DNA of 64,000 nucleotides, taken from the NCBI RefSeq assembly GCF_003569785.1, contig NZ_KZ983996.1, positions 1 to 64,000 on the forward strand, written 5' to 3'. Within the stretch, counting starts at the first letter, position 1, and each line of letters opens with the position of its first letter. The notes beneath the pieces are model-generated. The model had not been told where the DNA came from. It did not search any database and saw nothing but the letters and a program-made list of their open reading frames with translations. Positions 45,082 to 63,391 of this stretch are shown here, in pieces. This DNA comes from Leucobacter sp. wl10. GTDB lineage: Bacteria; Actinomycetota; Actinomycetes; Actinomycetales; Microbacteriaceae. Both the position numbers and the translations under genes were made by a program.

Positions 45082-46287
45082 ATGAGTTGGGAACGCTGGT
45101 ATGTTGTGGGCGGCCAAGCCGTTGGCCAACTCGCCACGGTTGTAACTCTCCCGTTACTGACGAGAACTATAGATCCCGTATCGATGGGGCTCTATCAGTC
45201 AGCATTCGCCCTTGGAGTAATACTTCAGCCTCTCGCATCGTTGCGTCTGGAGTTACTCTTGCCTGCCGTGCGAGGTAAGAACGAACTTCAGCGCTTGGTT
45301 CGCTTCTCCATATGGTCGCAGTCCATTTGCGGTGCGGTGGTGCTCGCGTTCTTCGTCGTGTTTGCTTCGCTGGGGGAATATAACGCTGGACAGATCGCGA
45401 TCATGGCGGGTCTGATCATGATCGCCTATGCGTCGATGGCGATCGACAATGCGCTCCTCGTGCGGCACGGAGCCATGCGTCGCCTTGCCGCGCGGAATCT
45501 TCTAACCGGGCTCCTCACTGCGGGATTTCAGATCGCTGTAGCGCTCTCGCTACCGAGCATCCTTCTCCTGGCGGCATCGATCCTTGCGGGGCGCTCCATC
45601 GCTATTCTGCTAACACGCCAATCACGACCTTCTCAACCAGAACCAGCCTCTGAAGGCGCGGAGAACATCCGGTGGTCTCCCGGGCGTGCGGTGTATTCGA
45701 TCCTTTCTGGCCTGGCATCCTCAGCATCCTTGCAGGGGCTCACCGTCTATGTCACAGTCGGATTTGGGGCCGCCGCCGCCGCCTCAGTCGGCGTCGCGCA
45801 ACGGAGTGCAAGCGCTCCGGTCGCGCTACTAAGTCAGGGCATCTCGCAGTATTCGCAGGCAAAGATCGCGGCGGAGCTGAGGTCAGGAGGCGCGATGGCC
45901 GGGGCGGAAATCGTGAAGCAGATCCGAGGGACCTTGCCGATAGCGATATTCGTAACGATATGTCTCGCGGTGTTAGGACCACTGTTGTCGCCGGTGATTT
46001 TCGGTTCGGAATGGAGCGCGGTTGGCCAGATCATCGCACTCCTAGCAGTACCGATTGGTCTGCAGCTCTTGATCTCCCCTGTGATGTCCGTCTTCGTGAT
46101 GTTGGGACAGGAACGGCGTTTGCTCGCCGTTCAACTCGCGCGCCTCGCCGTATCGCTCACCGGTGCAGTCGTGGCACAGTTGCTCGTGGGAGACATGATG
46201 ATGAGCGTTCTGGGGTTTGCCATTGGCACAGTGATCGGCTACGTCGTTACCTTCCTCGCAGTTTGGCGGCTGATTCGTGCGCATTAG
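45082..46287 (+). CDS. Polysaccharide flippase (Wzx-like, MATE/MOP superfamily)
   Basis: A 401-residue protein with about ten to twelve hydrophobic helices. The N-terminal VVGGQAVGQLATVVTLPLLT and GLYQSAFALGVILQPLASLR and the central LVIGS-like repeat pattern fit Wzx flippases. It would turn lipid-linked repeat units across the membrane. It follows the pyruvyltransferase and precedes the polymerase. Confidence 0.85.
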   Translation: MSWERWYVVGGQAVGQLATVVTLPLLTRTIDPVSMGLYQSAFALGVILQPLASLRLELLLPAVRGKNELQRLVRFSIWSQSICGAVVLAFFVVFASLGEYNAGQIAIMAGLIMIAYASMAIDNALLVRHGAMRRLAARNLLTGLLTAGFQIAVALSLPSILLLAASILAGRSIAILLTRQSRPSQPEPASEGAENIRWSPGRAVYSILSGLASSASLQGLTVYVTVGFGAAAAASVGVAQRSASAPVALLSQGISQYSQAKIAAELRSGGAMAGAEIVKQIRGTLPIAIFVTICLAVLGPLLSPVIFGSEWSAVGQIIALLAVPIGLQLLISPVMSVFVMLGQERRLLAVQLARLAVSLTGAVVAQLLVGDMMMSVLGFAIGTVIGYVVTFLAVWRLIRAH

Positions 46288-46400: not shown

Positions 46401-47771
46401 ATGACTGAGTACTTGATCACGGTGGCGATCCTCTTCGGGATCTTCCTCATCGGCGCCGGCCGTCGCTTCGGCTACCTATCTGCGATCAGCCTCTTCGTCT
46501 ACGCCCAGTCGGTGATGGCGATCGGTATCATCCCGTCACTCGAGATGGGCAACGCCGCTGATGAAGTCCACGCATGGCTTATCATCGGCACGCTCACCGT
46601 CGTTGTCCTCACGGCGACCGCGTACGCGATGTTCCTCAGGAGCGGTCGCCGTGATTATGCACCCGATGTGGACTACGTCTACCCGAAAACCTCGACATGG
46701 GCTCTTCTCCTGCTGTCGATCGCGGTATGCGTCCTATACTATTCCGCAATTGGATACATCGCCTTCTTTGAATCCCTTCAGAGCATCGAAGGCGGTGGAG
46801 ACGAAGACATTGCTGACCTCCGTATCCAGTCTTACTCCGGTTCGCGCTACCTATTCCCCGGTTATGTTAACCAGTTCAAAAACTCGCTGCTCCCCGCCCT
46901 AGTGATGGTGATTATCATCGCCGCTTTCCGCTTTCGCGCTCGCGGACGGCACTTACTCACCATCGCCCTCGTACCGATGACGCTCGTATTCCTTCTCGGC
47001 ACCGGTCAGCGTGCTCCATTCGTCCGGGCTTTGATATTCATCACGATCACTTTTTATCTGATCGCACCGAAGAAGATGAAGAAGTACGCACCAAGGATAG
47101 TTTTGGCGGGGCTCCCCCTGTTCTTTCTTACAACGGTTGCCACCGGCCGCGCGGCGCGGGAGCTTGCGGAAGCAGACGGACTCTTCGGAACGACCCAGGT
47201 GTTATTCGAGCAGCTGTTGTTCCGCATTTTTGGCTCCAGCCAGCTCGGTTCCGTGGTTGGATTCCGATGGGCGTACTCACAGAACATACCCGCCGGTAGT
47301 GAGTGGGCACAAAGCATCCTTGGTCTCCTTCCTGGACAGGCTGGCTCAGACACCGCAAATCAGATCTTCGCGCTGCTCTACGGTTCGACGCGCGGTACCG
47401 CACCGCTCTCCTTGTGGGGCTCGGCGTACTATAACTTCGGCATGGGAGGCTCACTGCTCCTTGCATTCTTCCTTGGCCTGTTGCTGTGCGCACTGTCTCA
47501 AAAGGCGTTGATGTTCAAGAAGATGAGTGTCATTCAAGCGACAGGTGTTGCCGGAGTATCAATGGCCTCTGGCCTATGGATTTCTGACGGCCCGACGACA
47601 CCGTTGAATGCGGGACTCCTCGCCTTCGCCTTTCTTTGGATTTGGGGGGCTCGTGTCGCGAGGAATCATGAAGTTCGACAAGCGAAACTCTTGAATGCGC
47701 AAGGACACAATTCATTAGGCCCGATAACGCTCTCTACCAACACCAAACGACAATCCCACAAACGATGGTGA
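46401..47771 (+). CDS. O-antigen-type polymerase (Wzy-like)
   Basis: A 456-residue integral membrane protein with about ten to twelve helices and a long external loop in the C-terminal half (QNIPAGSEWAQSILGLLPGQ, then LYGSTRGTAPLSLWGSAYYN), as in repeat-unit polymerases. VTLGTGQR-type RAPF motif appears as LLGTGQRAPFVRALIFI. Sequence identity in this family is low, so the call rests on topology and position. RBS GGGGG precedes the ATG. Confidence 0.82.
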   Translation: MTEYLITVAILFGIFLIGAGRRFGYLSAISLFVYAQSVMAIGIIPSLEMGNAADEVHAWLIIGTLTVVVLTATAYAMFLRSGRRDYAPDVDYVYPKTSTWALLLLSIAVCVLYYSAIGYIAFFESLQSIEGGGDEDIADLRIQSYSGSRYLFPGYVNQFKNSLLPALVMVIIIAAFRFRARGRHLLTIALVPMTLVFLLGTGQRAPFVRALIFITITFYLIAPKKMKKYAPRIVLAGLPLFFLTTVATGRAARELAEADGLFGTTQVLFEQLLFRIFGSSQLGSVVGFRWAYSQNIPAGSEWAQSILGLLPGQAGSDTANQIFALLYGSTRGTAPLSLWGSAYYNFGMGGSLLLAFFLGLLLCALSQKALMFKKMSVIQATGVAGVSMASGLWISDGPTTPLNAGLLAFAFLWIWGARVARNHEVRQAKLLNAQGHNSLGPITLSTNTKRQSHKRW

Positions 47772-49221: not shown

Positions 49222-50316
49222 GTGACTGAGTGGATTGCGGTCAGCAACGGCGCCTTGCTGCTCGAACATGCTTCCCAGGTCGGCGATCGACCTGTCAGCC
49301 TCGCCCTACTCCCGATCTCGCACAGCGAGCCGATCGCCATAGCGGACTCCGTCTCGGAACTCTGGCTCTCCCTCACACATACCCCGGTAGACGACAGTCG
49401 ACTCTCCCCTGAAGAACGATCCTTGATCCGCGAGTTCGCTGCGGCCGGGATCGCTTCTCCCGATCTCGATCACCTCCAGCGCGTGAACCGTGTCGAACAC
49501 TCTTGGTTCGAGTCCTTCCAGCATGAGCTCGTGTGCTCTCTCGTGACTTCCATTGCGCGCGGTCTAGGAATTCGATGCTTGATCATCAAAGGTCCGACCC
49601 TCCATGCGCAAGGACTCCGCCGTCGTGTTCATTCCGGAGATGTCGACCTACTCGTCGACCCCCGGAGGATCGTCGAGTTCGTTAGCGCCATGAATGAGTG
49701 GGGATGGGATAAGAGACCACACCCCCTTGACGGGACTCCGGCCCCGCATTCACACACGCTGCTGCCGATCGGTTGGGGGTGCGAAATCGATGTGCATGTG
49801 CGCTATCCAGGGATCACCATCCCCTCCTCGACCGCTTTCGATCTGTTGTGGCAGCACTCCGAAGAGCGGTTTTTTGCGGGCGTAGGAGGCCGCACTCCGA
49901 CGAAAGCCGCTCACGCTCTCATTCAAGGGCTGACCATCGTGCGTCCCGTACCCGGCAGAGGCCGTCCCCGGACCGGCGCCAACCCAAACGCAGTCGAAGT
50001 GCTGCGCGCAGGAGGGGAGCAGACACTCTCACTCGCGATCGAACTCGGATCCCACGGCGCCCTTGCCGATGAACTAAAGGTGGCATTCCCCGGAACCGGC
50101 ATCCCCAAGAAGAAGATACCGGCCGAATTCGTGTGGCTATCTCAGGCGAACCACGCCTTGCTTTACTTGCGAATGCTCCAAACGGTGCCTCTTCGAGACA
50201 AGCCGCTTCTCTTCTGGAAGGTCATAAGCCATCGCAGATCGCTCGCGGAGGGAGGACGTGAGACTCTGATACAGCGTTGGCGACGAGGGTTTGCCGAATC
50301 GCGACGTAACCCCTGA
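49222..50316 (+). CDS. PqqD-like domain fused to nucleotidyltransferase (NTP_transf_5)
   Basis: A 364-residue protein. Residues about 1-80 look like a PqqD/RRE-type domain (SLALLPISHSEPIAIADSVS, then ELWLSL). The nucleotidyltransferase core has IKGPTLHAQGLRRR and SGDVDLLVDP (about residues 122-147, with an Asp-x-Asp pair at 140 and 142). Similar enzymes occur in lasso-peptide and HPr-related clusters, where the substrate is often unknown. Here it follows the polysaccharide genes and precedes YdcF-like and HPrK-like genes. GTG start. The PqqD assignment is by pattern and is less certain than the nucleotidyltransferase. Confidence 0.75.
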   Translation: MTEWIAVSNGALLLEHASQVGDRPVSLALLPISHSEPIAIADSVSELWLSLTHTPVDDSRLSPEERSLIREFAAAGIASPDLDHLQRVNRVEHSWFESFQHELVCSLVTSIARGLGIRCLIIKGPTLHAQGLRRRVHSGDVDLLVDPRRIVEFVSAMNEWGWDKRPHPLDGTPAPHSHTLLPIGWGCEIDVHVRYPGITIPSSTAFDLLWQHSEERFFAGVGGRTPTKAAHALIQGLTIVRPVPGRGRPRTGANPNAVEVLRAGGEQTLSLAIELGSHGALADELKVAFPGTGIPKKKIPAEFVWLSQANHALLYLRMLQTVPLRDKPLLFWKVISHRRSLAEGGRETLIQRWRRGFAESRRNP

Positions 50317-50456
50317 ACGGGACTGTCCGGCGCGGGTGATCACGCCGATGGCAGACCTCGACAACTCTCTGCGACCCCAGCCGACAACCGTTCACAGCGG
50401 CCGGGGAATCACGAACTGCGAGAATTGAAGCTCGCAGACCCTGGAGGAGAACACAC

Positions 50457-51038
50457 GTGCGCAGAGTCGGTATCAGGTACGCGCGCGCAGCGCTCATACT
50501 GCTCCCCGCCATGCTCCTCGCCTACGCCGTCATCGTCTCCGTGCTCATCGCCTTTCCCAGGCAGAGCGCCGTCCGTAGCTCGGACGCCGTCGTCTCCCTC
50601 GGGCCGGCATCCGACCGGCTCCCCCTGGCCCAGCAGCTGTTCGAGAGCGGCCGGGCTGACTCACTGGTCATCTCGTGGGCCGGCCCGATGCCCCGCGATG
50701 CAGAAGAGAACGCACCCGATGAGCCGCTCGACCAGCGACTCTGCTCGAGCGGAGACCCGCGGATCTACTGCTTCGTGCCCAGTCCCAGCGACACGCTCGG
50801 CGAGGCGACTCGCGTGAGGCAGCTCGCGGTCGAAGAGGGATGGAAGTCGATCACCGTCGTCACGAGCCGATACCACGCGTTCCGCGCCGAGTTCATCTTC
50901 GCCCGCGTCATGCCGCAGGATGTCGAGGTGCAGGTGGTCCACGCCGAGACCGAACTCGGCGTGCGCGGGTGGCTGTACCATCTCGCGTATGAGCACGTGG
51001 CCTTCATCAAAGCCGTGTTCGAAACCGCACTCCGCTGA
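50457..51038 (+). CDS. YdcF/SanA-like (DUF218) membrane-anchored protein
   Basis: A 193-residue protein with one N-terminal helix (ARAALILLPAMLLAYAVIVSVLIAF) and an extracytoplasmic DUF218 domain: SDAVVSLGPASDRLPLAQQL, SDTLGEATRVRQLAVEEGW and ITVVTSRYHAFRAEFIF. Members are linked to envelope metabolism. GTG start preceded by GGAGGAG. Precise function unknown. Confidence 0.8.
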   Translation: MRRVGIRYARAALILLPAMLLAYAVIVSVLIAFPRQSAVRSSDAVVSLGPASDRLPLAQQLFESGRADSLVISWAGPMPRDAEENAPDEPLDQRLCSSGDPRIYCFVPSPSDTLGEATRVRQLAVEEGWKSITVVTSRYHAFRAEFIFARVMPQDVEVQVVHAETELGVRGWLYHLAYEHVAFIKAVFETALR

Positions 51039-51090
51039 ACGGCGGAGAGGCCTCGGCTCGCAGCGGTCGAATCCCGCTCGCGCCTGACCC

Positions 51091-52194
51091 TCAGCGGCGA
51101 TCGAGAACCCCGACGTCGGCCATCTCCCCGCACACCGCCTCGAGCGCCTCCCGCACCGACCCCTCCGGCGGCGCGCCGACGGTGCGCCGAACGCGCTCCT
51201 CGAGCTCGGCCCAGGAATCCCCCTCGCACAGCCCCCGCCAGACGACCGGAGCCACCCCCGTCAGCAGACGCAGCTGACGATCCCCCGTCAGCACGACGGT
51301 TCCATCGGCGCACTCGATCGCGTCGACCACATCAACGGCTCTGTAGGGGATCCGGGGCCGGTCCGTCGGGATGATCTGAGCCCACGGCTCGCACTCACCC
51401 GGCGCGAAAAGATGCTCCGCGACATCGGCGATCCTCTCGGGAACGCCCGCGCGGAGGCTGCGCACGCCGCCCGTCGCCTCGGCGATCTCGGCGATGCGCC
51501 GCAGAGGATGCGGCAACTCCACCAGATAGCTCGTCTGCTGCACGAGATCGAGCATGGCCGCTGCCAGAGGAACGGACTGCACCGTCGACTCCTCTTCCCC
51601 GTGCCGCTCGAGCAGAACGAGCCCGGCGATGTGCAGTTCGGCATCGGGCAGCGGCCGGAGCCCCAGCTCGGATGGCGCGATCTGCAGTTTGTCACGGCGT
51701 CCGTCCACGATCACCGACAGCGGTTTACGGTAGGGCAAGACCAGGTTCTGAGCCGTGATCGCGATCGTCTCATCGCTCAGATAGCCGTAGTCGCGCGCAA
51801 GATTGCGTATGGTCGTGGTCTTTCCACGCCCCGATGGGCCCACGATCGCCGCCACGGCGCCGTCGTCTCTCGCGATACCGCCCGCGTGGAGCATGAGATG
51901 CCGACCTCGGTGAAACTCCAGTGCCGCCGTGGTGACCTGCACGGTCAGGCGGTAGGCCTGGCTCTCGAACCCCTGCCTGTCGAGGGCAGGAACCGTTACG
52001 GCAGGCCGCTCTCGATCGTCCTTGATCGGGCCGCCCGCTCGCAACACCGTCGAATCTCGCCACGCGAGCAGCAATTCGTCGAACAGCTCGCGAGCGTTCG
52101 GCGCATCGGGGGTGCGCACGATCACACCGGTGCCGAACGCCTCGACTTGAGCTTCGAGCAGCGTCCGTTGCTCTGCGATCTCGGTCGACTCCAC
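51091..52194 (-). CDS. HPr-kinase-like ATPase fused to a PqqD-like domain
   Basis: A 367-residue protein. The middle holds an HPr-kinase-like P-loop, IVGPSGRGKTTTIRNLA (Walker A at about residues 119-127), preceded by RGRHLMLHAGGIA and followed by YLSDETIAI, the arrangement of HprK-related kinases. The last 80 residues (from about 285) look like a PqqD-type domain, IECADGTVVLTGDRQLRLL then GVAPVVWRGLCEGDSW. There is no PTS context. In lasso-peptide clusters such kinases phosphorylate the peptide, but no precursor is visible here. It is convergent with the YdcF-like gene. Confidence 0.75.
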   Translation of the reverse strand: MESTEIAEQRTLLEAQVEAFGTGVIVRTPDAPNARELFDELLLAWRDSTVLRAGGPIKDDRERPAVTVPALDRQGFESQAYRLTVQVTTAALEFHRGRHLMLHAGGIARDDGAVAAIVGPSGRGKTTTIRNLARDYGYLSDETIAITAQNLVLPYRKPLSVIVDGRRDKLQIAPSELGLRPLPDAELHIAGLVLLERHGEEESTVQSVPLAAAMLDLVQQTSYLVELPHPLRRIAEIAEATGGVRSLRAGVPERIADVAEHLFAPGECEPWAQIIPTDRPRIPYRAVDVVDAIECADGTVVLTGDRQLRLLTGVAPVVWRGLCEGDSWAELEERVRRTVGAPPEGSVREALEAVCGEMADVGVLDRR

Positions 52195-52277
52195 GGCACT
52201 CCTTCAGGGCGGTCCTGTCAGCACTGTCCATCCTGCCATGCGCGAGCGCGCGGGGCCGGTGGACGAGGAACGCGAAA

Positions 52278-52305
52278 GGGGCGGGATCACAGGTGATCCC
52301 GCCCC
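52278..52305 (-). terminator. Terminator hairpin after the exported protein gene
   Basis: Arms GGGGCGGGATCAC (52278-52290) and GTGATCCCGCCCC (52293-52305) pair perfectly. On the minus strand a short CTTTCG follows. It lies 35 bases beyond the stop of the exported protein at 52340 and would insulate the HPrK-like gene. Confidence 0.65.
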
Positions 52306-52339: not shown

Positions 52340-52813
52340 CTACGCCGGAGCGGACACGGTGCCGCCCCATGACCGGCCCGCGTCGGCGGGGCCGTCGCTC
52401 GTGAGGGTGTAGGTGCCGGCGCTCGGGCTGTTGAAGCGGATGTCGACGGCGGTCGACCCCGGGTCGGGCGTGACCAGCCAGACACCGGGACTGACCTGGG
52501 TGATCGTTCCACCCGAGATGGAGGTGACGATCGAGTTGAAATCGAGATCGGAGGTCAGTGTGAACGTCTGGCCGTTCGGGAAGAAGCCGTCCTCCCCGTT
52601 GGGAGCCAGACCGAACGGACGGATGATGCCGACGTTGCCGACGAACGGGCTCGTTGTGGTGGCACCGATGGTCGTCGCCTCTTCAGGCGGCTCGACCGAG
52701 GCGCTCGCCATCGGAGCCGAGACCGCGACCGCGACCACGGGGGCGGCCCACGCCGCGGCCTTGACAACGGAGCGGCGCTTCATGCCGCCTTCTTCATTGA
52801 TGTTCTCAGTCAC
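52340..52813 (-). CDS. Tat-like exported surface protein, unknown
   Basis: A 157-residue protein. After MTENINEEGG comes a twin-arginine signal, MKRRSVVKAAAWAAPVVAVA, ending near PMASAS. The mature part of about 120 residues is rich in Thr, Ser, Gly and Pro, with beta-strand-like segments (NGQTFTLTSDLDF, TYTLTSDGPADAG) and no cysteines. There is no sortase motif or anchor. A second protein of this design is at 55894. The AraC-type gene immediately upstream on the same strand may control it. Confidence 0.8.
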   Translation of the reverse strand: MTENINEEGGMKRRSVVKAAAWAAPVVAVAVSAPMASASVEPPEEATTIGATTTSPFVGNVGIIRPFGLAPNGEDGFFPNGQTFTLTSDLDFNSIVTSISGGTITQVSPGVWLVTPDPGSTAVDIRFNSPSAGTYTLTSDGPADAGRSWGGTVSAPA

Positions 52814-52937: not shown

Positions 52938-53792
52938 TCACGGCGCATTCGGTATGGCGACGCCTTCGGCGCCGCGCGGCGTCGGTCCGGATCCGCGCAG
53001 CTTCGAGGGAGAGTCGTATCCTTCCTGCGCCATGGCCCGGGCGAGGCTGGAGGCGCCGCTGAAGCCGACGTGGCGAGCCACCTGACCGACGGTCAGCAGC
53101 GCATAGTCGGGATCCCGGAGCATCTTCACCGCGCGCTCGACGCGGATCCGGCGCAGCTCCCTGCGGATCGTGGTGCCGCGCCTGCTGAACTCGCGCTCGA
53201 GCTGCCTCCGCGAGAGGTTCACAGCCTCCGCGACGCCGGCCGAGGCCAGGTCGGGGTCGGTGAACTGCGCCGCCAGCACCGACACGGCCTGGCGAAACGG
53301 ATCCTTCAGCGGCCTGGGGGTGCGCTCCACACGGGACGTATCCGCGAGCAGCCCCTGCAGCATCTCCTGCAGCAGGCGCTCGACGTAGTAGTCGCCGAGC
53401 CTCGACCGGGTCGCTTCCGGCGTCTGCGCCGCGCGCAGCGCGAACGCGAGGCTGGGCGCCAGCAGCGCCGACCCGGCGGACAAGGCCTGCGGGGCGCAGG
53501 CGGAGAGCGTCGACCTCACGTCCCGAGCGAGTTCGCCGGGACCGCTGATCGTGACGACCTCCGCGCCCGTCCGGGCATCGGCCTCGCAGAAGACCTCCGC
53601 GAGCGACAGCACGGCCTCCCCCGCCCGGAGAGCGCGTCCGCCGATCGGCGAAACCAGGCTCAGGCCTCCCTGCCGCACCGCGATGAGGTGCAACTCGCCG
53701 ACATCGCCCCAGCTCAGCGAGGCACCGGCTGAGAACAGTTGAGTGCGAATGCAGATCGAACCGAACTCCGCTCCCGAACTTCTCACACTCAC
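52938..53792 (-). CDS. AraC-family transcriptional regulator
   Basis: A 284-residue regulator. The N-terminal half is an AraC-type cupin-like sensor. A linker helix (YYVERLLQEMLQGLL) precedes the C-terminal double helix-turn-helix: LASAGVAEAVNLSRRQLERE, then LLTVGQVARHVGFSGASSLA. GTG at 53792 follows GGGGAGGTGATGTC and is preferred over longer upstream frames. The linker nearly matches that of the gene at 62336 (YYAERLLQEMLQGLL), so they are paralogues. Confidence 0.87.
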   Translation of the reverse strand: MSVRSSGAEFGSICIRTQLFSAGASLSWGDVGELHLIAVRQGGLSLVSPIGGRALRAGEAVLSLAEVFCEADARTGAEVVTISGPGELARDVRSTLSACAPQALSAGSALLAPSLAFALRAAQTPEATRSRLGDYYVERLLQEMLQGLLADTSRVERTPRPLKDPFRQAVSVLAAQFTDPDLASAGVAEAVNLSRRQLEREFSRRGTTIRRELRRIRVERAVKMLRDPDYALLTVGQVARHVGFSGASSLARAMAQEGYDSPSKLRGSGPTPRGAEGVAIPNAP

Positions 53793-53997
53793 GACATCAC
53801 CTCCCCGAAGCTGATTCAAGGTAAGCGACGAGCTCGATCGCCCAGGACGATTCGCGCATTCCCCACCCCACCTCCACCCCGAATACCACCCCTCGGTAGC
53901 GAGGCTCCGGCTCGCTCGCACTCGTCAGCAGCGGCTCGACGCGGATCCAGGCGACTCGATCCGGCCGAATGCGCATTGCCGTGAGAAACTGGAGCAC

Positions 53998-54729
53998 ATG
54001 TCCGAGCAACGCTCCCGCCCACGCCGGATACTCGGGCACCCGCTCACGCACCTGTTCGCCGCGCTCCTGATCCTCGGGTTGACGCAGGCATTCGTCGTGA
54101 AACTGTTCATGGTGCCGTCGGGATCGATGGAGAACACGCTCGAGATCGGCGACCGCCTGCTGGTGAACCGGCTCGCCTACTCGCTGCCCGGAAGCGACGG
54201 CGTGCCCGAGCCCGGCGACCTCGTCGTCTTCTCCACGCAGGAGCAGCTCTGGCCCGACGGGAACGACGCCGCACCCGATTCGCCGCTCAGCTGGGTGAAG
54301 TACGGCGCGAAGTGGTTCTTCGGCGACCTCATCGGCATCGGGCCGACCACGGACCGCCTGCTCGTCAAGCGCGTCATCGGCACTCCCGGCCAGACCGTGG
54401 AGTGCTGCAGCACGTCGGGTCAGCTGCTCGTCGACGGCGAACCCATAGAGGAGCCGTACCTCTTCGAGGACCTCCCCTTCGAGGCCGGCACCCTCGACTG
54501 CGCGACTACGCCGCGCTCCGCGCGCTGCTTCGCACCGGTGACGGTGCCCGAGCGGCGGCTACTCGCGCTCGGAGACCATCGCAGCGCGAGCAACGACGGG
54601 ATCACGCGCTGCCGCAGCCGCGACGGACCCTCATCGGAGAGCTGCGTTCGCTGGGCGCGCACCGACGACGTGCTCGGAGAGGTCTTCGCGGTCGTCTGGC
54701 CGCTGAATCGATGGGGAGGACTCTCATGA
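53998..54729 (+). CDS. lepB: Signal peptidase I
   Basis: A 243-residue membrane protease. One N-terminal helix (LFAALLILGLTQAFVVKLFM) precedes the catalytic VPSGSMENTLEIGDRLLVNR (Ser43) and RLLVKRVIGTPGQTVE (Lys124), then LALGDHRSASNDGITRC. It removes signal peptides on the outer face of the membrane. It sits between two exported-protein genes and may be a dedicated copy. Its stop overlaps the acyltransferase start. Confidence 0.92.
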   Translation: MSEQRSRPRRILGHPLTHLFAALLILGLTQAFVVKLFMVPSGSMENTLEIGDRLLVNRLAYSLPGSDGVPEPGDLVVFSTQEQLWPDGNDAAPDSPLSWVKYGAKWFFGDLIGIGPTTDRLLVKRVIGTPGQTVECCSTSGQLLVDGEPIEEPYLFEDLPFEAGTLDCATTPRSARCFAPVTVPERRLLALGDHRSASNDGITRCRSRDGPSSESCVRWARTDDVLGEVFAVVWPLNRWGGLS

Positions 54730-55883
54730 GCACGATATCGACCACCGCGCGGTACTACTCGCTGGACGCCGCGCGCGGATTCGCGCTGTTCGCCATGGTG
54801 ATCGCGCACACGGGCCCGTTCCTCAAACCCGCCCCCATGATAATCGCCTACCCCGAATCGATCCTCAACGACGTCGCGGCCCCGCTGTTCATGCTGAGCA
54901 TCGGCGTCACCGCCACGATCGCGGGGCCGCCGATCGGCGCGGACGCCGGAGACCGGCGCCGCTACCGCCTGCAGACGGCCGTCAGGGCCGTGATCCTGAT
55001 CGCGCTCGGCTTCCTGCTCGAGTTCGCCCCCTCGGGCGTCAACATCGTGCTCGACTACATCGGAGTGGCGATGCTGCTGGCGCTGCCGTTCCTCTTCGCG
55101 CGCACCCGCACGCTGCTCATCTGGGCCGCGGCCCTGATCGCGATCGGACCCGGCCTCGTCACCTGGCTGAGGGGTCTGGCGGTGACGGTACCGGAGCTGG
55201 TGTACCCGACGACCCCCGTGACGATCGCGCTCGACTGGATCGCTCTGGGGCACGGCTATCAGGCGCTCGCGTTCCTCCCCATCCTGCTCATCGGCCTCGT
55301 GCTCGGGCGCACCATCCTGCGAAACCGCGCGGCCATGTTCGTCCTCTTCCACGCATCGGTGGTCGCGTTCATTCCGATCGAGCTGTGGCGCATCCTCGAC
55401 CTGCCCGGCACCGGCATTCGAGGCGGGTATGTCGAGGTGCTCAGGGAGCTGCCCCTGGCGCTCGGGGCGTTCGCGCTCATCGCCCTGCTGACCGACCTCG
55501 GCCCCGACCGGCTCGTGACCGGCGCGCGGCGCGTGTTCGAGCCGCTCTCCGTGCAGGGCCGGCTGGGGCTGAGCATCTACGCCCTGCACGTTCTGGTGCT
55601 GATGGGGATCTGGGCTGCGCGCAACGCCTCGGCGAGTTCCGGAGCGGTGACCTGGTTCTCGTGGCCCAGAGGCGCCGCGATCCAGATCGGACTCGTCGTG
55701 TTCTGCTGGCTCTTCGCCGCGGCGTGGTGGCGCTGGCTGGGCCCCGGTCCGATCGAGCGCGTGGTCGGCGTCGTGTCGGGGCGGCACCCGCTGTCATCGC
55801 TGACGAGTTCAGCGCATCATCGTTCGACGAACGCGGTTCGAGGCCCCGGCACGACCTCCGGAGCCTCGAACCGCGTGAAGTGA
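54726..55883 (+). CDS. Membrane acyltransferase (HGSNAT/DUF418-like)
   Basis: A 385-residue integral membrane protein with about ten helices. RYYSLDAARGFALFAMVIAH at the N-terminus and the C-terminal GRLGLSIYALHVLVLMGIW are typical of heparan-alpha-glucosaminide acetyltransferase-like and DUF418 proteins. These may move acyl groups across the membrane onto surface sugars. The last 30 codons run through a strong hairpin (55831-55876) and look non-conserved. It overlaps the signal peptidase gene and is convergent to the exported protein at 55894. Confidence 0.8.
   Translation: MSTISTTARYYSLDAARGFALFAMVIAHTGPFLKPAPMIIAYPESILNDVAAPLFMLSIGVTATIAGPPIGADAGDRRRYRLQTAVRAVILIALGFLLEFAPSGVNIVLDYIGVAMLLALPFLFARTRTLLIWAAALIAIGPGLVTWLRGLAVTVPELVYPTTPVTIALDWIALGHGYQALAFLPILLIGLVLGRTILRNRAAMFVLFHASVVAFIPIELWRILDLPGTGIRGGYVEVLRELPLALGAFALIALLTDLGPDRLVTGARRVFEPLSVQGRLGLSIYALHVLVLMGIWAARNASASSGAVTWFSWPRGAAIQIGLVVFCWLFAAAWWRWLGPGPIERVVGVVSGRHPLSSLTSSAHHRSTNAVRGPGTTSGASNRVK
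55831..55876. terminator. Hairpin between convergent genes, inside the coding end
   Basis: Arms ACGCGGTTCGAGGC (55831-55844) and GCCTCGAACCGCGT (55863-55876) form a perfect 14-bp stem, and the loop ends (CCGG/CCGG) can extend it. It lies within the final codons of the acyltransferase gene, 18 bases from the convergent stop at 55894. A shared terminator is likely, though no T-run follows. Confidence 0.55.
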
Positions 55884-55893
55884 AGCGGCGGTA

Positions 55894-56538
55894 CTACAGC
55901 AGCCCGGCGCCGACGGGAACGCTGATCGACGAGCCGGCGCTCAGCGTCGGACCGCTGCTGAACGCGAGCGTCACCGTCACCGGGAACGACGCGAGCGCGG
56001 AGATCGCCACTCCGGTGGACACCCCGGCGAGGCCGAACACCACCGGCACCGCGAGCGACCCGTTCGAAGCCACGTTCACCGGCACGTTCGCGCGGGTGAA
56101 GGTGGTGGCCGGGAACCCGAACTGGCCGACAATCGGAGCGCTCTGGTAGCTCGCGGTGCGCTCAGCGGGGGTGGAGTCGACACCGTCGTACGACGCCACG
56201 CCGAAACCGCGAGCCTGGCCCACGGGAATGTTGAGGCCCGACGGGCGCCCCACTGCGATCGTCACGGTGGCGGTCTCGTCGATCGGGCCGGTCCCATTGG
56301 TCAGAGTGAACTCGGTCGGGGTGGTGGTCAGCGCCTGAGCGCTGAGCGTTCCGCCGCCGTCGAGAAGAGTCAGCGTGAGCAGACCCGTGATGCTGCTGGT
56401 CCAGCTCAGCGACGAGTTGTTCACGCTCGCCGAGACAGCGGGCACCGCGACGGCGGTGGCGAGCACCGGCACCGACCAGGCGGCGCCCTTCACCATCGTG
56501 CGCCGCGAGAGATCCTTCTTCTTGAGTTCGTCAGTCAT
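55894..56538 (-). CDS. Tat-like exported surface protein, unknown
   Basis: A 214-residue protein. The N-terminus has a twin-arginine signal, DLSRRTMVKGAAWSVPVLAT, ending near AVSAS at about residue 38. The mature part is rich in Thr, Ser, Val and Gly, with predicted beta strands (TLTLLDGGGTLSAQALTTTP, FTLTNGTGPIDETATVTIAV) and no cysteine. No wall anchor is visible. It shares design but little sequence with the protein at 52340. An AraC-type gene lies upstream on the same strand. Confidence 0.8.
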   Translation of the reverse strand: MTDELKKKDLSRRTMVKGAAWSVPVLATAVAVPAVSASVNNSSLSWTSSITGLLTLTLLDGGGTLSAQALTTTPTEFTLTNGTGPIDETATVTIAVGRPSGLNIPVGQARGFGVASYDGVDSTPAERTASYQSAPIVGQFGFPATTFTRANVPVNVASNGSLAVPVVFGLAGVSTGVAISALASFPVTVTLAFSSGPTLSAGSSISVPVGAGLL

Positions 56539-56789: not shown

Positions 56790-57710
56790 TCAGGAGCTGT
56801 GAGGGGTCAGTTCGCCACGGCGCGAACGCAGCTCGCGCGGACCCGAGCCGTAGGCCTCGTGCAGCGCGCGTCTCATACTCATCGTGGTGCCGAACCCCGA
56901 GCGTTCGGCGATCTGGTCGACCGTCAGCACGTCGTACCTGCTGTCGGTCAGAAGAGCGTGCGCGAGGCGAGTCCTTCGCCGCCGGATCTCGCCCGCCACG
57001 GTCATTCCGATGTCGGCGAACACCGTCTGCAGCTGCCGCAGAGACACCTGCACCTCGCGGGCCACCCGCGCGGGGTTGAGCTCGACATCGGCGCACTGCT
57101 GGGCAATAACGGTCATCGCACGGTCTCGCAGCACCGCCCGGGGGCTGCCCTGGCCGCGCCCCTGACCCAGCAGGTCGAGCAGCACCGCCCCTCCCATCTC
57201 GAGCAGCAACTGCTCGATCGCGTAGTTCTCAATCGCTGTCGCGGTCTTGTCGTGCTGAAGAAGCGCCACCGCGAACGCCTGCATCGACAGGTCGAGAAGC
57301 GACCGCTCGCGCACGTGCACCACCCCCACGGGAAGCTCGGGCACGAAGGCCTCCATCGCCGAGCGCGGCAGGCGCACGAGCGCGGCCTGCCAGCGGCTGA
57401 TGAGCCGCGTGCGCCGCTTCACCCCATCGGGGATGACGAGGAACTGAGCCTCGAGGTGCACCCAGTCGGCGCCATCGAGGTAGGCGAAGCTCCCCTCCTC
57501 GACGAACACGAAATCCACCGTCGCACCGTCGGCCCCCGTCTCCGCGGCGAGCTCGGCCGCATCTCCGCGCATCCTGAGGAGGGTCACTCCTCCGCACACG
57601 CGTTCAAGAGCGAACACCCTGAGCGCTCCGTCGACACCCCGGGCCCCGCTCGCATGGAAGTCAGCGGTTCCGTATCGACGGATCCCTGCTCCTGACGCCC
57701 CAACGTCCAC
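56790..57710 (-). CDS. AraC-family transcriptional regulator
   Basis: A 306-residue regulator with an N-terminal sensor domain (about residues 1-170), a linker with AIEQLLLEMGGAVLLDLL, and the C-terminal helix-turn-helix pair: LNPARVAREVQVSLRQLQTV, then LTVDQIAERSGFGTTMSMRR. GTG start. Divergent from the BY-kinase gene and upstream of the second exported protein. Related to the other AraC-type genes here. Confidence 0.87.
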   Translation of the reverse strand: MDVGASGAGIRRYGTADFHASGARGVDGALRVFALERVCGGVTLLRMRGDAAELAAETGADGATVDFVFVEEGSFAYLDGADWVHLEAQFLVIPDGVKRRTRLISRWQAALVRLPRSAMEAFVPELPVGVVHVRERSLLDLSMQAFAVALLQHDKTATAIENYAIEQLLLEMGGAVLLDLLGQGRGQGSPRAVLRDRAMTVIAQQCADVELNPARVAREVQVSLRQLQTVFADIGMTVAGEIRRRRTRLAHALLTDSRYDVLTVDQIAERSGFGTTMSMRRALHEAYGSGPRELRSRRGELTPHSS

Positions 57711-57871
57711 TGCCTGTTCTCACGTTCGCGAACGACAATGCGTTTCCCCTGAGCCACAGACTAGCCGATGATGAGCCTGCTCATTGTCGGCCCGGGTCTG
57801 CTATATCGACCGAACGCGGGTAGCATCGTATGGTACTGCTATTCCGGCCGATGATAGAGGAGATCAGCAGC

Positions 57872-59437
57872 GTGGAGCTGACCGATTACTGGAAGATCCT
57901 GCGAGCGCACTGGCTCGGGATCATCTCGATCACCCTGGTGGGTGCTCTCCTCGGCTTGGGCTGGGCACTGCTCCAGCCCAAGGTCTACACCGCTAACGCG
58001 AGCGGCATCGTGTCGGCCGGGGTCAGCAGCGACCTGGGCACCGCGATGGCCGGCGAGAACTACGCGAAGTCGCGCGTGAAATCGTATCTCGACCTCGCGA
58101 AGTCGCGGTCGGTCTCCGAGGCGGCGATCAAGTCGCTCGGCATCGACGCCGATCCCGATGCGCTCATCTCGCAGATCGAGGTGACCAACCCCCTCGACAC
58201 GGCCACGCTCAAGGTCTCCGCAAGCGCGGGCAACCCCGAAGCGGCCCGGGCACTCGCCGAGGCCTGGGTCACGGCGGTCGGCGAGAAGGTGACGGAGCTC
58301 GAGAACGCCAATGCGGCCCCCGCAGTCGACGGCAGCCTGCCGCAGTCGATCGTCACCTTCCAGTCGATGGATGCCGCCCAGCTCCCGGACGCCCCCTCGT
58401 CACCGAACACCAGGCTCGCGATCGCCATCGGCGCGCTCGCCGGCCTCGCCCTCGCGCTGGGCTACGCGCTGCTGCGCAACATCTTCGACCGCCGCATCCA
58501 CTCCATCGCCGAGGTCGAGCGCGAGACCGAGCTGGCGGTGGTCGGCACCATCCCTGTGCACAGCGGCTTCGACGCCGAGAACCGCATGATCACGAGCACC
58601 GGCGGCAACGACCGCGATAAACGGAGCCACGAGGAGTACGCCGTCGCCGAGGCGATGCGCGAGCTGCGCACCAACCTGCAGTTCATGAACATCGATAACC
58701 CGCCCCGCTCCATCGTGATCACGAGCGCGCTGCCCGGCGAGGGCAAGTCGACCATCACCGCCAACCTCGCGAACACGATCGCAGCCTCGGGCCGCAACGT
58801 CGTGGTCATCGACGGCGATCTGCGGCGCCCGATGGTCGCCAAGACCTTCGGGCTGCTGCCCGGGGTCGGGCTCACAGACGTGCTGATCGGCAACGCCCAG
58901 CTCGCCGAAGTGCTGCAGCCCTGGGGCACCACCGGCAAACTGTGGGTGCTCGGGGCCGGCAAGATCCCGCCCAACCCGAGCGAGCTGCTCGGCTCGAACG
59001 CCATGCACGACGTGATCGAGGAGCTCGCGCGACACGCCATGGTGCTCATCGATGCACCCCCGCTGCTCCCCGTGACCGACGCCGCGATCCTGACCGCGCG
59101 CACCGACGGCGCGCTCGTCGTGAGCCGCGCCCACAAGACCACCTACGAGGCGCTCAAGGCCGCACTCAACAACCTGCAGCGCATCAAGGGGCACGCCCTC
59201 GGGGTCATTCTCAACGGCGTGCCGCGCAAGGGCGTGAAGGCAGACGGCTACGGCTACCGCTACCGCACCTACTACGGTCGGCAACAGGAGCCGCAGCCGC
59301 AGCCGAAGCCCCAGGGCGACGGGTTCAAGGACTTCGCCGAGCTGCTCACCCAGGGTTCCGCGGCGAGCGGCGGCGCAGCCGGCGATGTCGCGACGGAGCC
59401 CGGTCCGCGCCGAGGGCGTCGTGAGTCGCAGCCATGA
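57872..59437 (+). CDS. Chain-length regulator/BY-kinase fusion (Wzc/CapAB-like)
   Basis: A 521-residue protein that combines a Wzz-type domain with a bacterial tyrosine kinase. Membrane helices are at about residues 14-34 and 182-201. The kinase has Walker A SALPGEGKSTITANL (about 285-299), Walker A' VVVIDGDLRRPMV and Walker B VLIDAPPLLPVTDA. The C-terminus has a tyrosine cluster, GYGYRYRTYYGR, for autophosphorylation. GTG at 57872 follows AGAGGAG and is preferred over in-frame starts upstream. It controls polymer length with the phosphatase encoded next. Confidence 0.92.
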   Translation: MELTDYWKILRAHWLGIISITLVGALLGLGWALLQPKVYTANASGIVSAGVSSDLGTAMAGENYAKSRVKSYLDLAKSRSVSEAAIKSLGIDADPDALISQIEVTNPLDTATLKVSASAGNPEAARALAEAWVTAVGEKVTELENANAAPAVDGSLPQSIVTFQSMDAAQLPDAPSSPNTRLAIAIGALAGLALALGYALLRNIFDRRIHSIAEVERETELAVVGTIPVHSGFDAENRMITSTGGNDRDKRSHEEYAVAEAMRELRTNLQFMNIDNPPRSIVITSALPGEGKSTITANLANTIAASGRNVVVIDGDLRRPMVAKTFGLLPGVGLTDVLIGNAQLAEVLQPWGTTGKLWVLGAGKIPPNPSELLGSNAMHDVIEELARHAMVLIDAPPLLPVTDAAILTARTDGALVVSRAHKTTYEALKAALNNLQRIKGHALGVILNGVPRKGVKADGYGYRYRTYYGRQQEPQPQPKPQGDGFKDFAELLTQGSAASGGAAGDVATEPGPRRGRRESQP

Positions 59438-60003
59438 GTCGCCGCGCACGGAGAAGGCAGGCGCCCGTCGCCGTGCTCACGGTGTGCACCGGCAACATCT
59501 GCCGCTCGCCGCTCGCCGAGCAGCTGCTGCGATCGCGCTTCGCGGATGATCCGCGATTCGAGTTCGGCAGCGCCGGGCTGGAGGCGGTCGCGGGGGCACC
59601 CATGGACCCCGCGGCGGCACGCCAGCTCGTCGCGCTCGGCGGCGATCCCGCGGGCCTGATCGGAGAGCAGATCGGCGAGCGGCACGCGGACGCCGCCGAC
59701 CTGATCCTCACCATGACACGTTCGCAGCGCGACGAGGTGGTGCGCCGCTTCCCGCGGTCCGTGCGACGGGTCTTCACGCTGGCCGAGTTCTCGGCGCTGC
59801 TCGACCTGGATGAGTCTCAGGCCGCCACCGCGGATCCGCGCGCGCTCATCGAAGAGGCCTCGCGCCGGCGCTCCGAGGTGAGACTCGGCGAGGCCGACGA
59901 CGTGGTCGACCCCATCGACGCCGCGGACGAGGTGCACGCGCGGGTCGCCTCCCAGGTCGCCGGCTACGTCGACGCGATCGCCGCCGGGCTCGGGCGGTCG
60001 TGA
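59434..60003 (+). CDS. Low-molecular-weight protein tyrosine phosphatase (Wzb-like)
   Basis: A 189-residue phosphatase with the CX5R signature VCTGNICRSPLAEQLL (Cys18, Arg24) after a basic N-terminus. ADDVVDPID near residue 150 supplies the candidate general acid Asp. It should dephosphorylate the BY-kinase tail. The ATG overlaps the kinase stop, confirming the Wzc/Wzb pair. Longer than the usual 150 residues because of a basic N-terminus and an insertion of about 20 residues before the acid loop. Confidence 0.9.
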   Translation: MSRRARRRQAPVAVLTVCTGNICRSPLAEQLLRSRFADDPRFEFGSAGLEAVAGAPMDPAAARQLVALGGDPAGLIGEQIGERHADAADLILTMTRSQRDEVVRRFPRSVRRVFTLAEFSALLDLDESQAATADPRALIEEASRRRSEVRLGEADDVVDPIDAADEVHARVASQVAGYVDAIAAGLGRS

Positions 60004-60701: not shown

Positions 60702-60864
60702 GTTCGCGCTCCCCATCCCGCGCCCCCCGCCCCTCTGAGGCGAACCCTCAAGCATCGCGGCTAGCATGGGAGGGAGAGATCTTCGTTCCATCGAGTTCCC
60801 GGTCACCGCGCAGCCGGGCGCAGCGGATACGCCGACGCCGCACGACACCCCGAGGAGCCCCGCA

Positions 60865-61962
60865 GTGACCCAATCCCCGTCGCCCATCGAACAACTGTTC
60901 GCCGAGGCCGACCGCGACGCCGAAGCGCAGCGGGCCGCGCCCAAGCGCAAACGCAGGGGCCTGCGCAACACCCTCATCGTGCTCGGCTCCCTCATCGCGC
61001 TGCTCGGCATCGGGGCCGGCATCGTCTACGCCATGATCGCGAACTCCTACAACGAGATCGAGCGCGTGAGCATCGAGCAGGATCCCTCGCTCGAACGCCC
61101 CGCCGTCACGACGCCCGAGCCCGGCAAGAAGGCCCCCATCAACGTCCTTCTGCTCGGCTCCGACTCCCGAGAAACGACCGACCCCACGGCGACGGCCGAA
61201 GACCTCAAGGGGTTCCGCAGCGACACCATCATGGTCGCGCAGATCTCGCCGGACCGCCAGAACCTCACGGTCATGTCGATCATGCGCGACAACTGGGTGG
61301 GCATCCAGGGCGTCGGCGAGGCCAAGATCAACGCGGCGGTGGCGTACGGCGGTCTGCCGCTCGCCGTGAACACCGTCGAGAACTTCATCGGCGCCCGCAT
61401 CGACCACGTTGCCCTCATCGACTTCGAATCGTTCAAGGGCCTCACCGACGCGGTCGGCGGGGTCACCGTGCGCAATGAGGTCGCGTTCACCAATCAGAAC
61501 GGCGGCGGCTCGTCCTTCGAGGCCGGCGACATCACGCTGAACGGCGAGCAGGCACTCGGCTTCGTGCGCGAACGCTATGCCTTCGCCGACGGCGACTACC
61601 AGCGCGCGCGCAACCAGCAGGCGTACCTCAAGGGGCTCATGCAGAAGGTGCTCAGCCGGGAGACGCTGGGCAACGTGGGCAGGCTCACCGACACCTTCCA
61701 AGCGCTCAAGCCCTACCTGATCCTCGATCAGAAGCTCGACCTGCCCACCGCGGTGAGTCTCGGCTTCGACATGCGCAACCTGCGCAGCGAGAACATCACC
61801 CTCTTCACGAGCCCCACCCTCGGCACAGGCACCTCGGCCGACGGGCAGTCGATCGTGGTTCCCGACCAGGCCGCCCTCGAGGAGGTGCGCGCGGCGTTCC
61901 AGGCCGGAACCATCAACGAGTACGCCGCTGCACGACCTCCCGGGTCGGAAGTGCCGCAGTAG
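60865..61962 (+). CDS. LytR-CpsA-Psr (LCP) family transferase
   Basis: A 365-residue membrane protein. A cytoplasmic tail of about 40 residues is followed by one helix (NTLIVLGSLIALLGIGAGIV) and an external LCP domain: INVLLLGSDSRETTDP, SDTIMVAQISPDRQNLTVMS, INAAVAYGGLPLAVNTVENF and ALGFVRERYAFADGDYQRAR with the arginines that bind polyprenyl pyrophosphate. It attaches lipid-linked polymers to peptidoglycan, here probably the locus polysaccharide. GTG at 60865 follows GAGGAG; an in-frame upstream ATG at 60766 is less likely. Confidence 0.9.
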   Translation: MTQSPSPIEQLFAEADRDAEAQRAAPKRKRRGLRNTLIVLGSLIALLGIGAGIVYAMIANSYNEIERVSIEQDPSLERPAVTTPEPGKKAPINVLLLGSDSRETTDPTATAEDLKGFRSDTIMVAQISPDRQNLTVMSIMRDNWVGIQGVGEAKINAAVAYGGLPLAVNTVENFIGARIDHVALIDFESFKGLTDAVGGVTVRNEVAFTNQNGGGSSFEAGDITLNGEQALGFVRERYAFADGDYQRARNQQAYLKGLMQKVLSRETLGNVGRLTDTFQALKPYLILDQKLDLPTAVSLGFDMRNLRSENITLFTSPTLGTGTSADGQSIVVPDQAALEEVRAAFQAGTINEYAAARPPGSEVPQ

Positions 61963-62335: not shown

Positions 62336-63391
62336 ATGAGAAGACATGCGGAGTTCGGCTCGGTCGAACTCGAGTTGCGAAGCATACCGGCGGGCCGCCG
62401 GATCGTGGTACATGCCAAGACCGACACCCTTCAGTTGTACATCGTGCGCCAGGGGGCGATGGAGATCATGCATCTGGCCCGCCGCACCGAGCTGACCAGC
62501 GGTGGAGCCGCTTTCGTCGCGGCCAACTCTTACGGTCTCCGGACAGGGGTCACCGGCACCGCCTACCTGCGCATCGATTTTCCGAGGGAGCTCTCGCACG
62601 GCACGATCGCTTCCAGCGACGACGCCCCCTCGGTGTACCCCGTTCCCTCGAGCTCTCTGCTGCTCCGACCGGTGGCGGCATTCGCCACTCGGCTCGTTCC
62701 CGAGCGGCGGGGCGCCGCCGCACCGGGTATCAGCGCCTACTACGCCGAGCGGCTGCTCCAGGAGATGCTGCAGGGGCTTCTGGTCAGCATCGGGCAGGCC
62801 CTCGCCGTTCCCAGACCTCCGGAGACCTTCGCACTCGCCCGATCTGTGATCTCGGCGCAGTGCTCCGATGCCCGCTTCACCGCTGCAGATGTGGCACGAG
62901 AGGTGAATCTCTCCCTTCGGCAACTCGAGAGGGTGTTCCAGCGACACCGCACCTCCATCGGCAGAGAGATCCGCGACGCCCGCATCGAACAGGCGGTCAC
63001 GCTCCTTTCCGACCCCGCGCACGACGCACTGAGTGTCGATCAGATCGCCCGGTTCGTCGGGTTCAGCACCGGCTCCAGCCTCGCACGGGCGATGACGGCG
63101 TCGAAGAACATCTCTCCGTCGCAGGTACGAGCCGGTCGCAATCACCGCTCCACGGCCTCCCCCTCGCATCCCGCCACAGGGCCCCCGCACGGACCATCGC
63201 GAGTCAGCGGCCGAGGCTCGAGGGAAGAGCGGACGCTCAGAGAAACGGCCCTGCACTGCCGGGCGTCAAGGTCCGTGTTCCTTCCCGTGCCTCGGCCACG
63301 AGCGCGGCGACCATGCCGCAGAGCAGATCATCCGCCGCCTTCATTTCGCCCCGCGATGGCAACTGCCCTCGACGATCGCGCAACTCGATGA
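62336..63391 (+). CDS. AraC-family regulator with aberrant C-terminal extension
   Basis: A 351-residue protein. The sensor domain spans about residues 1-140, the linker YYAERLLQEMLQGLL about 143-157, and the helix-turn-helix pair FTAADVAREVNLSLRQLERV and LSVDQIARFVGFSTGSSLAR lies at about 180-260. The normal AraC end comes near residue 270 (SPSQVRAGRN). A low-complexity tail of about 80 residues then reads antisense into the convergent gene at 63237-63884, suggesting loss of the original stop. Paralogue of the gene at 52938. Confidence 0.8.
   Translation: MRRHAEFGSVELELRSIPAGRRIVVHAKTDTLQLYIVRQGAMEIMHLARRTELTSGGAAFVAANSYGLRTGVTGTAYLRIDFPRELSHGTIASSDDAPSVYPVPSSSLLLRPVAAFATRLVPERRGAAAPGISAYYAERLLQEMLQGLLVSIGQALAVPRPPETFALARSVISAQCSDARFTAADVAREVNLSLRQLERVFQRHRTSIGREIRDARIEQAVTLLSDPAHDALSVDQIARFVGFSTGSSLARAMTASKNISPSQVRAGRNHRSTASPSHPATGPPHGPSRVSGRGSREERTLRETALHCRASRSVFLPVPRPRARRPCRRADHPPPSFRPAMATALDDRATR

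Follow-up and report, generated by a model that had tools for sequence, protein, structure and literature searches.

Genes of the kinase locus

The window considered here is a stretch of 64,000 nucleotides from Leucobacter sp. wl10, comprising bases 1-64000 of a 133-kb contig (NZ_KZ983996.1) in a 3.8-Mb genome. Its region 49222-52194 was found to hold three genes, encoding an NTP_transf_5-type nucleotidyltransferase (49222-50316, plus strand), a YdcF-like protein (50457-51038, plus strand) and, on the minus strand, an HprK-related kinase (51091-52194) with a predicted C-terminal RRE, a recognition element of ribosomally synthesized and post-translationally modified peptides (RiPPs). Across genomes the kinase and nucleotidyltransferase genes co-occur and often cluster, and the kinase is tracked by a signal of fixed spacing at the N-terminus of exported proteins, two of which are encoded in the window. 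This is a real, co-conserved module, and more than was described in an earlier note made from the sequence of this DNA alone.

The product of 51091-52194 is, by its sequence, an HprK-related P-loop kinase. TIGR04352 and TIGR04353 are the NCBIfam models of the HPr-rel-A system, a named system without assigned function, which resembles the present one in combining an HprK-related kinase with a PqqD-family partner. TIGR04352 is weakly matched (E ≤ 1e-3) by 18 of 20 aligned members of the kinase family, whereas the window kinase itself reaches 23.2 bits, far under the cut-off of 200. Residues H103, K125 (the Walker A lysine), D141 and E142 are invariant in all 20 members and resemble the His-Lys-Asp-Asp motif described for lasso kinases (PMC9266682). 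The solved structures matched by the kinase were P-loop proteins, PEP carboxykinase and LppB.

The last 84 residues of the kinase (284-367; bases 51094-51345, minus strand) are assigned on similarity to a PqqD/RRE domain. They scored 82 bits against a family RRE profile of 22 such domains from the kinase family, in which the window domain itself is one row. This profile matched the solved RREs of TbiB1 (4e-10), LppB (8e-10; 9x8z, the LppB-LppA structure) and PqqD (5e-6), as well as lasso B1 chains in the PDB. The Pfam PqqD model misses the domain and has no match anywhere in the genome of the window, and in an NCBIfam scan of the 22 domains any single PqqD model was matched by four or five members at most, all weakly. 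The proposal of the earlier note that an HPr-kinase-like ATPase carries a PqqD-like domain is thus borne out. Many relatives have an additional stand-alone RRE, and at one locus (L077, genome G060) a 525-residue kinase protein ends in two tandem RRE-like domains.

A fusion of the nucleotidyltransferase to a further PqqD-like domain had also been claimed, and here only the enzymatic half was supported. The protein matches NTP_transf_5 with 24.6 bits, under the cut-off of 31.2, and the Pfam model is matched by 15 of 16 aligned members of its family, in which D140 and D142 are kept in at least 90% and D190 in all 16. Its N-terminus scored 6.4 bits against the family RRE profile, with an hhalign probability of 2.5%; an RRE-like domain was found at the C-terminus of the nucleotidyltransferase in three relatives. 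Comparison of this protein with solved structures yielded nothing useful. Structure prediction with AlphaFold2 gave mean predicted local distance difference test values of 42.8 for the kinase (from three sequences) and 41.4 for the nucleotidyltransferase (from two sequences). The gene between the two encodes, as had been proposed, a YdcF-like DUF218 protein (38.1 bits, cut-off 27.6), the family of which (F15) was present in four of 30 clustered pieces.

A shared N-terminal signal and its association with the kinase

Two predicted secreted proteins encoded near the kinase (52340-52813 and 55894-56538, both minus strand) and similar proteins in other kinase loci were found to have a common N-terminus resembling a twin-arginine translocation (Tat) signal, with the pattern RR-x7-W-x2-P-x8-P-x4-S (signal regions at 52670-52789 and 56398-56517, minus strand). 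A profile, A1, was built from 17 such proteins of nine genomes and searched against 199 genomes of the same family. The kinase is present in 18 of these at E < 1e-20, the level taken as kinase-positive, and the next genome follows at 4e-6; a looser limit is passed by 60 genomes, the remaining 42 giving weak, mostly P-loop matches. At E < 1e-6 the signal was detected in 20 family genomes, namely all 18 kinase-positive ones and two of the 181 others (G085 and G165), and 32 genomes gave a match at a limit of 0.01. The nine kinase-positive genomes that contributed no row to A1 all have the signal.

A second set comprised 394 class-level genomes, including the window's own genome and some kinase-negative genomes of the family set; in it, 19 genomes have a strong kinase match (E < 1e-60). 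The signal was found at E ≤ 1e-4 in 18 of these 19 and in five of the 375 others, at 1e-6 in 17 and one, and at 1e-3 in 18 and nine, respectively, with at most 18 candidates scored per genome, so that misses among the negatives are possible. With phylogeny ignored, Fisher tests returned about 1e-23 for the family set and 1e-25 to 1e-26 for the class set. Within the seven genera in which both states occur, the signal was present in all ten kinase-positive genomes and in none of the 12 kinase-negative ones. A scan of genome contigs found the kinase in at least three loci with a named source, two in Nocardioides and one in Kocuria rhizophila, all actinobacterial, and these three genomes have three, four and four signal matches, respectively. 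The signal is therefore associated with the kinase across genomes.

The number of signal matches per positive family genome at the 0.01 limit ranges from one to at least 37 (G073, 37 of 86 candidates scored). The matches are scattered along the chromosome; the window's genome has nine, one of them in a 46-residue frame and two inside the window. In nine of the 17 class genomes other than the window's own that have both kinase and signal, the kinase has a signal gene no more than 3.2 kb away; in two the distance is 28-32 kb.

The anatomy of the signal was examined in 69 distinct proteins from 19 family genomes (17 kinase-positive genomes together with G085 and G165), 17 of these proteins being rows of A1. 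In these proteins RR stands 8-9 residues ahead of the tryptophan (W), and a serine is found at W+17 in 68 and at +18 in the remaining one. Proline occupies W+12 in 68; the residue at W+5 is always I, V, L or M, and in 68 proteins it is I, V or L. The W-x-x-P motif is present in every match at E < 1e-6, and no conserved residue was found downstream of the serine in the 69 proteins. The fixed serine and tryptophan are not forced by A1, because the loss of either would cost only some of the 30-65 bits, although the profile does favour ungapped spacing. In a second batch of 45 matches, mostly from class genomes but with one window protein and G165 again included, W-x-x-P occurs in 40, of which 33 have the serine at +17, and five are without W-x-x-P.

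The AxA ahead of the serine looks like a signal-peptidase site. The shared signal thus contains the [Y/W]xxP motif bound by RREs, with a serine directly behind the expected cleavage site. The mature parts of the proteins (47-512 residues) form 47 BLAST clusters, and domain matches among the 65 scanned are few (RCC1-like in three, choice-of-anchor G in two, bacterial Ig-like, AIDA). No convincing C-terminal anchor was found in the 69 proteins, which gave three marginal hydrophobic stretches and two LPxTG-like matches judged spurious. Such an unusual signal, common to largely unrelated exported proteins in genomes with the kinase and nucleotidyltransferase, points to a novel means of labelling proteins of the cell surface.

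The polysaccharide locus and other neighbouring genes

Pfam and NCBIfam scans of the open reading frames (ORFs) placed the three genes, as the earlier note had it, inside a polysaccharide locus, which is of the Wzx/Wzy type and takes up about 34-62 kb of the window. Its first part encodes epimerases, an aminotransferase, an initiating sugar transferase (Bac_transf; 36984-37595, plus strand), glycosyltransferases and a pyruvyltransferase-like protein. These are followed by a flippase-like protein (45082-46287, plus strand; Polysacc_synt, below cut-off), a Wzy-type repeat-unit polymerase (46401-47771, plus strand; TIGR04370, 45.4 bits, cut-off 40) and a UDP-glucose dehydrogenase, and then by the nucleotidyltransferase, YdcF-like and kinase genes. 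On the 3' side lie, all on the plus strand, genes for a Wzc-like protein with a Wzz domain and an ATPase (57830-59437), a Wzb-like low-molecular-weight phosphatase (59434-60003) and a LytR-CpsA-Psr family protein (60766-61962).

The neighbourhood survey proposed in the earlier note bears out co-conservation of the enzymes, mostly in loci of this kind. Both the nucleotidyltransferase and the RRE were found in all 18 kinase-positive family genomes (24 and 26 family genomes in total, respectively), and of the 18 further class genomes with a strong kinase match all but G505 have the nucleotidyltransferase. Within 5 kb of the kinase, 21 family loci, with gene calls made for this analysis, have Wzc in 11, Wzb in ten, a sugar transferase in eight and the nucleotidyltransferase in nine. 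Among 17 class-level pieces around the kinase, counted by eye, 13 contain Wzc and 11 the nucleotidyltransferase.

That the signal tracks polysaccharide synthesis in general was rejected at a loose level. A Wzc-type match occurs in 195 of the 199 family genomes at E ≤ 1e-3, a level that takes in generic ATPases, and polysaccharide genes alone therefore do not explain the signal. The Wzc subtype of the window (E ≤ 3e-114) is found in 17 family genomes, 15 of them kinase-positive (15 of 18), which suggests dedicated polysaccharide machinery. Subtype and kinase are discordant in five genomes, G040 and G186 lacking the kinase and G096, G073 and G188 lacking the subtype, and in all five the presence of the signal follows the kinase.

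Between the first signal-protein gene and the kinase gene, a strong G+C-rich hairpin followed by TTT (52275-52305, minus strand) is interpreted as a probable terminator, which argues against one common transcript there; with the hairpin and T run directly behind it, the signal-protein gene may form a single-gene transcript. Three genes for AraC-type regulators were identified in this part of the window (52938-53921 and 56790-57710, minus strand; 62336-63391, plus strand), two of which directly adjoin the two signal-protein genes, and members of the same protein cluster also occur next to signal proteins in locus L059. The gene for a bacterial-type signal peptidase I (53998-54729, plus strand) is followed on its 3' side by one for a membrane protein resembling heparan-glucosaminide N-acetyltransferase (54726-55883, plus strand), a relative of which occurs near the kinase in locus L058.

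Proposed function and relation to known systems

The closest parallel is with the LPP (linear polyphosphorylated peptide) RiPPs of Bacillota, for which an HprK-like kinase, an RRE, an NTP transferase and a SipW-type peptidase are described in capsule loci (Popov et al., 2026; PMC13381572). RREs of that group are reported to bind [Y/W]xxPx[hydrophobic], and LppK to phosphorylate Ser3 of the core, the S3A, S3T and S3Y variants not being phosphorylated (PMC13381572). W/Y/L-x-x-P recognition sequences are described as widespread among RREs (PMC12710340). The window resembles the LPP loci in encoding a kinase, an RRE and an NTP transferase within 20 kb, together with a signal-peptidase-type enzyme in a capsule-type locus. 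The LPP consensus YxxPxVLxHQxIxFETxxS has a Y-to-Ser offset of 18, compared with 17 from W to Ser here (PMC13381572); the rest of that consensus is not found in the candidate signal, which shares only W-x-x-P-x-[IVL] and the serine. In contrast to LPP, kinase and RRE form a single protein and a Tat-like signal serves as leader, and against the one to three precursors per cluster given for LPP stand the one to at least 37 scattered proteins per genome (PMC13381572). LPP systems are further described as having a SipW-type peptidase and an MsbA-like exporter, and as being restricted to Bacillota (PMC13381572). The signal peptidase of the window matches TIGR02227 (90.8 bits, cut-off 47) and not the archaeal TIGR02228 (11.6 bits, cut-off 51.85), no genome-wide search for SipW having been made, and a Pfam scan of selected ORFs between 26 and 63 kb revealed no MsbA-like exporter, the sole ABC (ATP-binding cassette) ATPase there adjoining a FecCD permease at 29.5-32 kb.

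The best reading is that of an actinobacterial, proteome-scale relative of LPP. We regard it as fairly probable that a group of exported proteins is modified under the guidance of the RRE, the RRE-kinase phosphorylating, and the nucleotidyltransferase capping, their first serine. Before the precursor leaves the cytoplasm, the RRE of the kinase would bind the W-x-x-P in the Tat-like signal peptide, and this would place the serine 17 residues downstream of the tryptophan, behind the AxA site, in the HprK-like active site to be phosphorylated. This step is proposed because of the parallel with LppK. The NTP_transf_5 enzyme would then cap the phosphate with a nucleotide or sugar, a step proposed because PsmN is reported to add a hexose to phosphorylated pseudomycoidin (PMC9266682). 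After export by Tat and cleavage by signal peptidase I, the protein would stand at the surface with a modified N-terminal serine, probably in association with the polysaccharide of the locus. Attachment to polysaccharide is speculation drawn from the gene neighbourhood, the absence of other anchors and the LytR-CpsA-Psr protein in the locus. The earlier suggestion of surface modification by lasso-type enzymes without lasso machinery holds up in this form; a small protein or glycan of unknown identity does not have to be assumed as the target, because the best candidates are the exported W-x-x-P / AxA-Ser proteins, two of which are encoded in the window just outside 49222-52194.

Several observations weigh against this reading. 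The genomes are related, so that the Fisher values overstate the association, and scoring was confined to the best candidates in each genome. The complete signal occurs without the kinase in G085 and G165, and G422 has a weakly scoring one with the serine. G505 is kinase-positive and has neither the signal (118 of 118 candidates scored) nor the nucleotidyltransferase, and no signal match was obtained in nine class genomes whose kinase matches are weaker (1e-15 to 1e-25, counted as negative). For six of the 17 class genomes other than the window's own, no linkage was scored. In the kinase-positive G431, the four signal proteins seen (of five matches; L209, L229) lack the tryptophan while retaining the proline and serine, which may reflect co-drift of RRE and motif. 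Because the kinase is tracked by a Wzc subtype as well, some other component of the locus could be what the signal requires, although in the five discordant genomes the signal goes with the kinase. Located in a hydrophobic stretch, W-x-x-P might be there for Tat or for the membrane. Finally, the capping step is weakened because deletion of lppN is reported to have caused no detectable change in LPP (PMC13381572).

It is unlikely that the three genes instead make one small LPP-like peptide from an overlooked short precursor gene, the W-x-x-P proteins being fellow travellers of polysaccharide loci. LPP precursors are described as short ORFs near the kinase (PMC13381572), and such ORFs easily escape the gene caller used; however, among the protein clusters no short family other than the RRE recurs next to the kinase, and the signal proteins track the kinase despite being scattered over the genome and have an RRE-type motif and a serine at LPP-like spacing. 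Slightly less likely again is that the two enzymes have the polysaccharide machinery or a sugar intermediate as their target, with the RRE as a regulatory or scaffold domain. The adjacency of the kinase to Wzc, Wzb or a sugar transferase in many loci and the behaviour of the Wzc subtype would fit, but the kinase-tracking signal and the likeness to peptide-binding RREs would be left unexplained.

The motif might also be read by Tat, by the signal-peptidase machinery or by another unseen protein, with the kinase merely accompanying it, and this we judge less probable than either of the foregoing. It would account for the position of the motif within the hydrophobic core of the signal and for G085 and G165, and in seven of the 21 family loci a signal peptidase I cluster member is found no more than 5 kb from the kinase. 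It is opposed by the fixed, LPP-like spacing from W to serine, by the RRE as a ready reader, and by the five class-level exceptions without the kinase, four of which also have no serine at +17 (Thr stands there in G556 and other residues in G432, G514 and G343, the last of which lacks the W as well).

A remnant or unusual paeninodin-type lasso peptide cluster, although lasso tailoring is known to employ a kinase, a nucleotidyltransferase and an RRE (PMC9266682), is very improbable and largely refuted, since the lasso B2 protease (PF13471) is absent from the window's genome, as the earlier note had supposed for the locus, and was found in just one of the 36 kinase-positive genomes examined (G487, where it lies away from the kinase locus), whereas of the eight genomes with an RRE and no kinase all six examined do have it. 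No asparagine-synthase-type macrolactam synthetase was found among the window ORFs scanned, no genome-wide model search having been made. The system nevertheless resembles the tailoring of paeninodin and pseudomycoidin by PadeK, PsmK and PsmN in pairing an HPr-kinase-type serine kinase with an enzyme of the hexose-adding NTP_transf_5 type, the candidate serine lying here at the mature N-terminus and theirs at the C-terminus of the peptide (PMC9266682). In G085 (locus L243), G001 and G148 a lasso B2 protease and a distant kinase-like match were observed 0.4-0.6 kb apart with an RRE 5-18 kb away, and these are probably lasso clusters with a tailoring kinase in the same family.

By its parts, the proposed protein-modification system is a variant of LPP/paeninodin tailoring. 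In its logic, whereby the phylogenetic profile of a short signal points to its reader, it recalls PEP-CTERM/EpsH (exosortase), in which a short signal is likewise common to many unrelated exported proteins and tracks a protein of polysaccharide loci (Haft et al., 2006; PMC1569441). Here, however, the signal stands at the N-terminus and is combined with a Tat-like one, and the proposed reader is an RRE-kinase and not a membrane enzyme (PMC1569441). Tentatively, it may represent a new class of N-terminal sorting and attachment system of Actinobacteria, in which one signal is read by Tat for export and by the RRE-kinase for modification and the phosphorylated, capped first residue joins unrelated surface proteins to polysaccharide. 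Such a system would, just as tentatively, be a cytoplasm-primed counterpart of sortase and exosortase. In the open-access literature searched, no paper was recognised as describing such a signal or system in Actinobacteria, and we know of no precedent for one reader serving many exported proteins through a Tat-like signal.

RRE domains are known for directing enzymes to a single peptide precursor or a small number of them. Here, a signal present on as many as dozens of ordinary exported proteins is apparently recognised by an RRE, and RiPP chemistry would thereby be extended to the surface proteome. For an uncharacterised kinase-nucleotidyltransferase pair this provides a list of candidate substrates and a single candidate residue, and makes the action of NTP_transf_5 enzymes on phosphoserine directly testable. 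It also supplies an annotation rule, by which genomes with an RRE-kinase can be searched for RRx7WxxPx8Px4S proteins.

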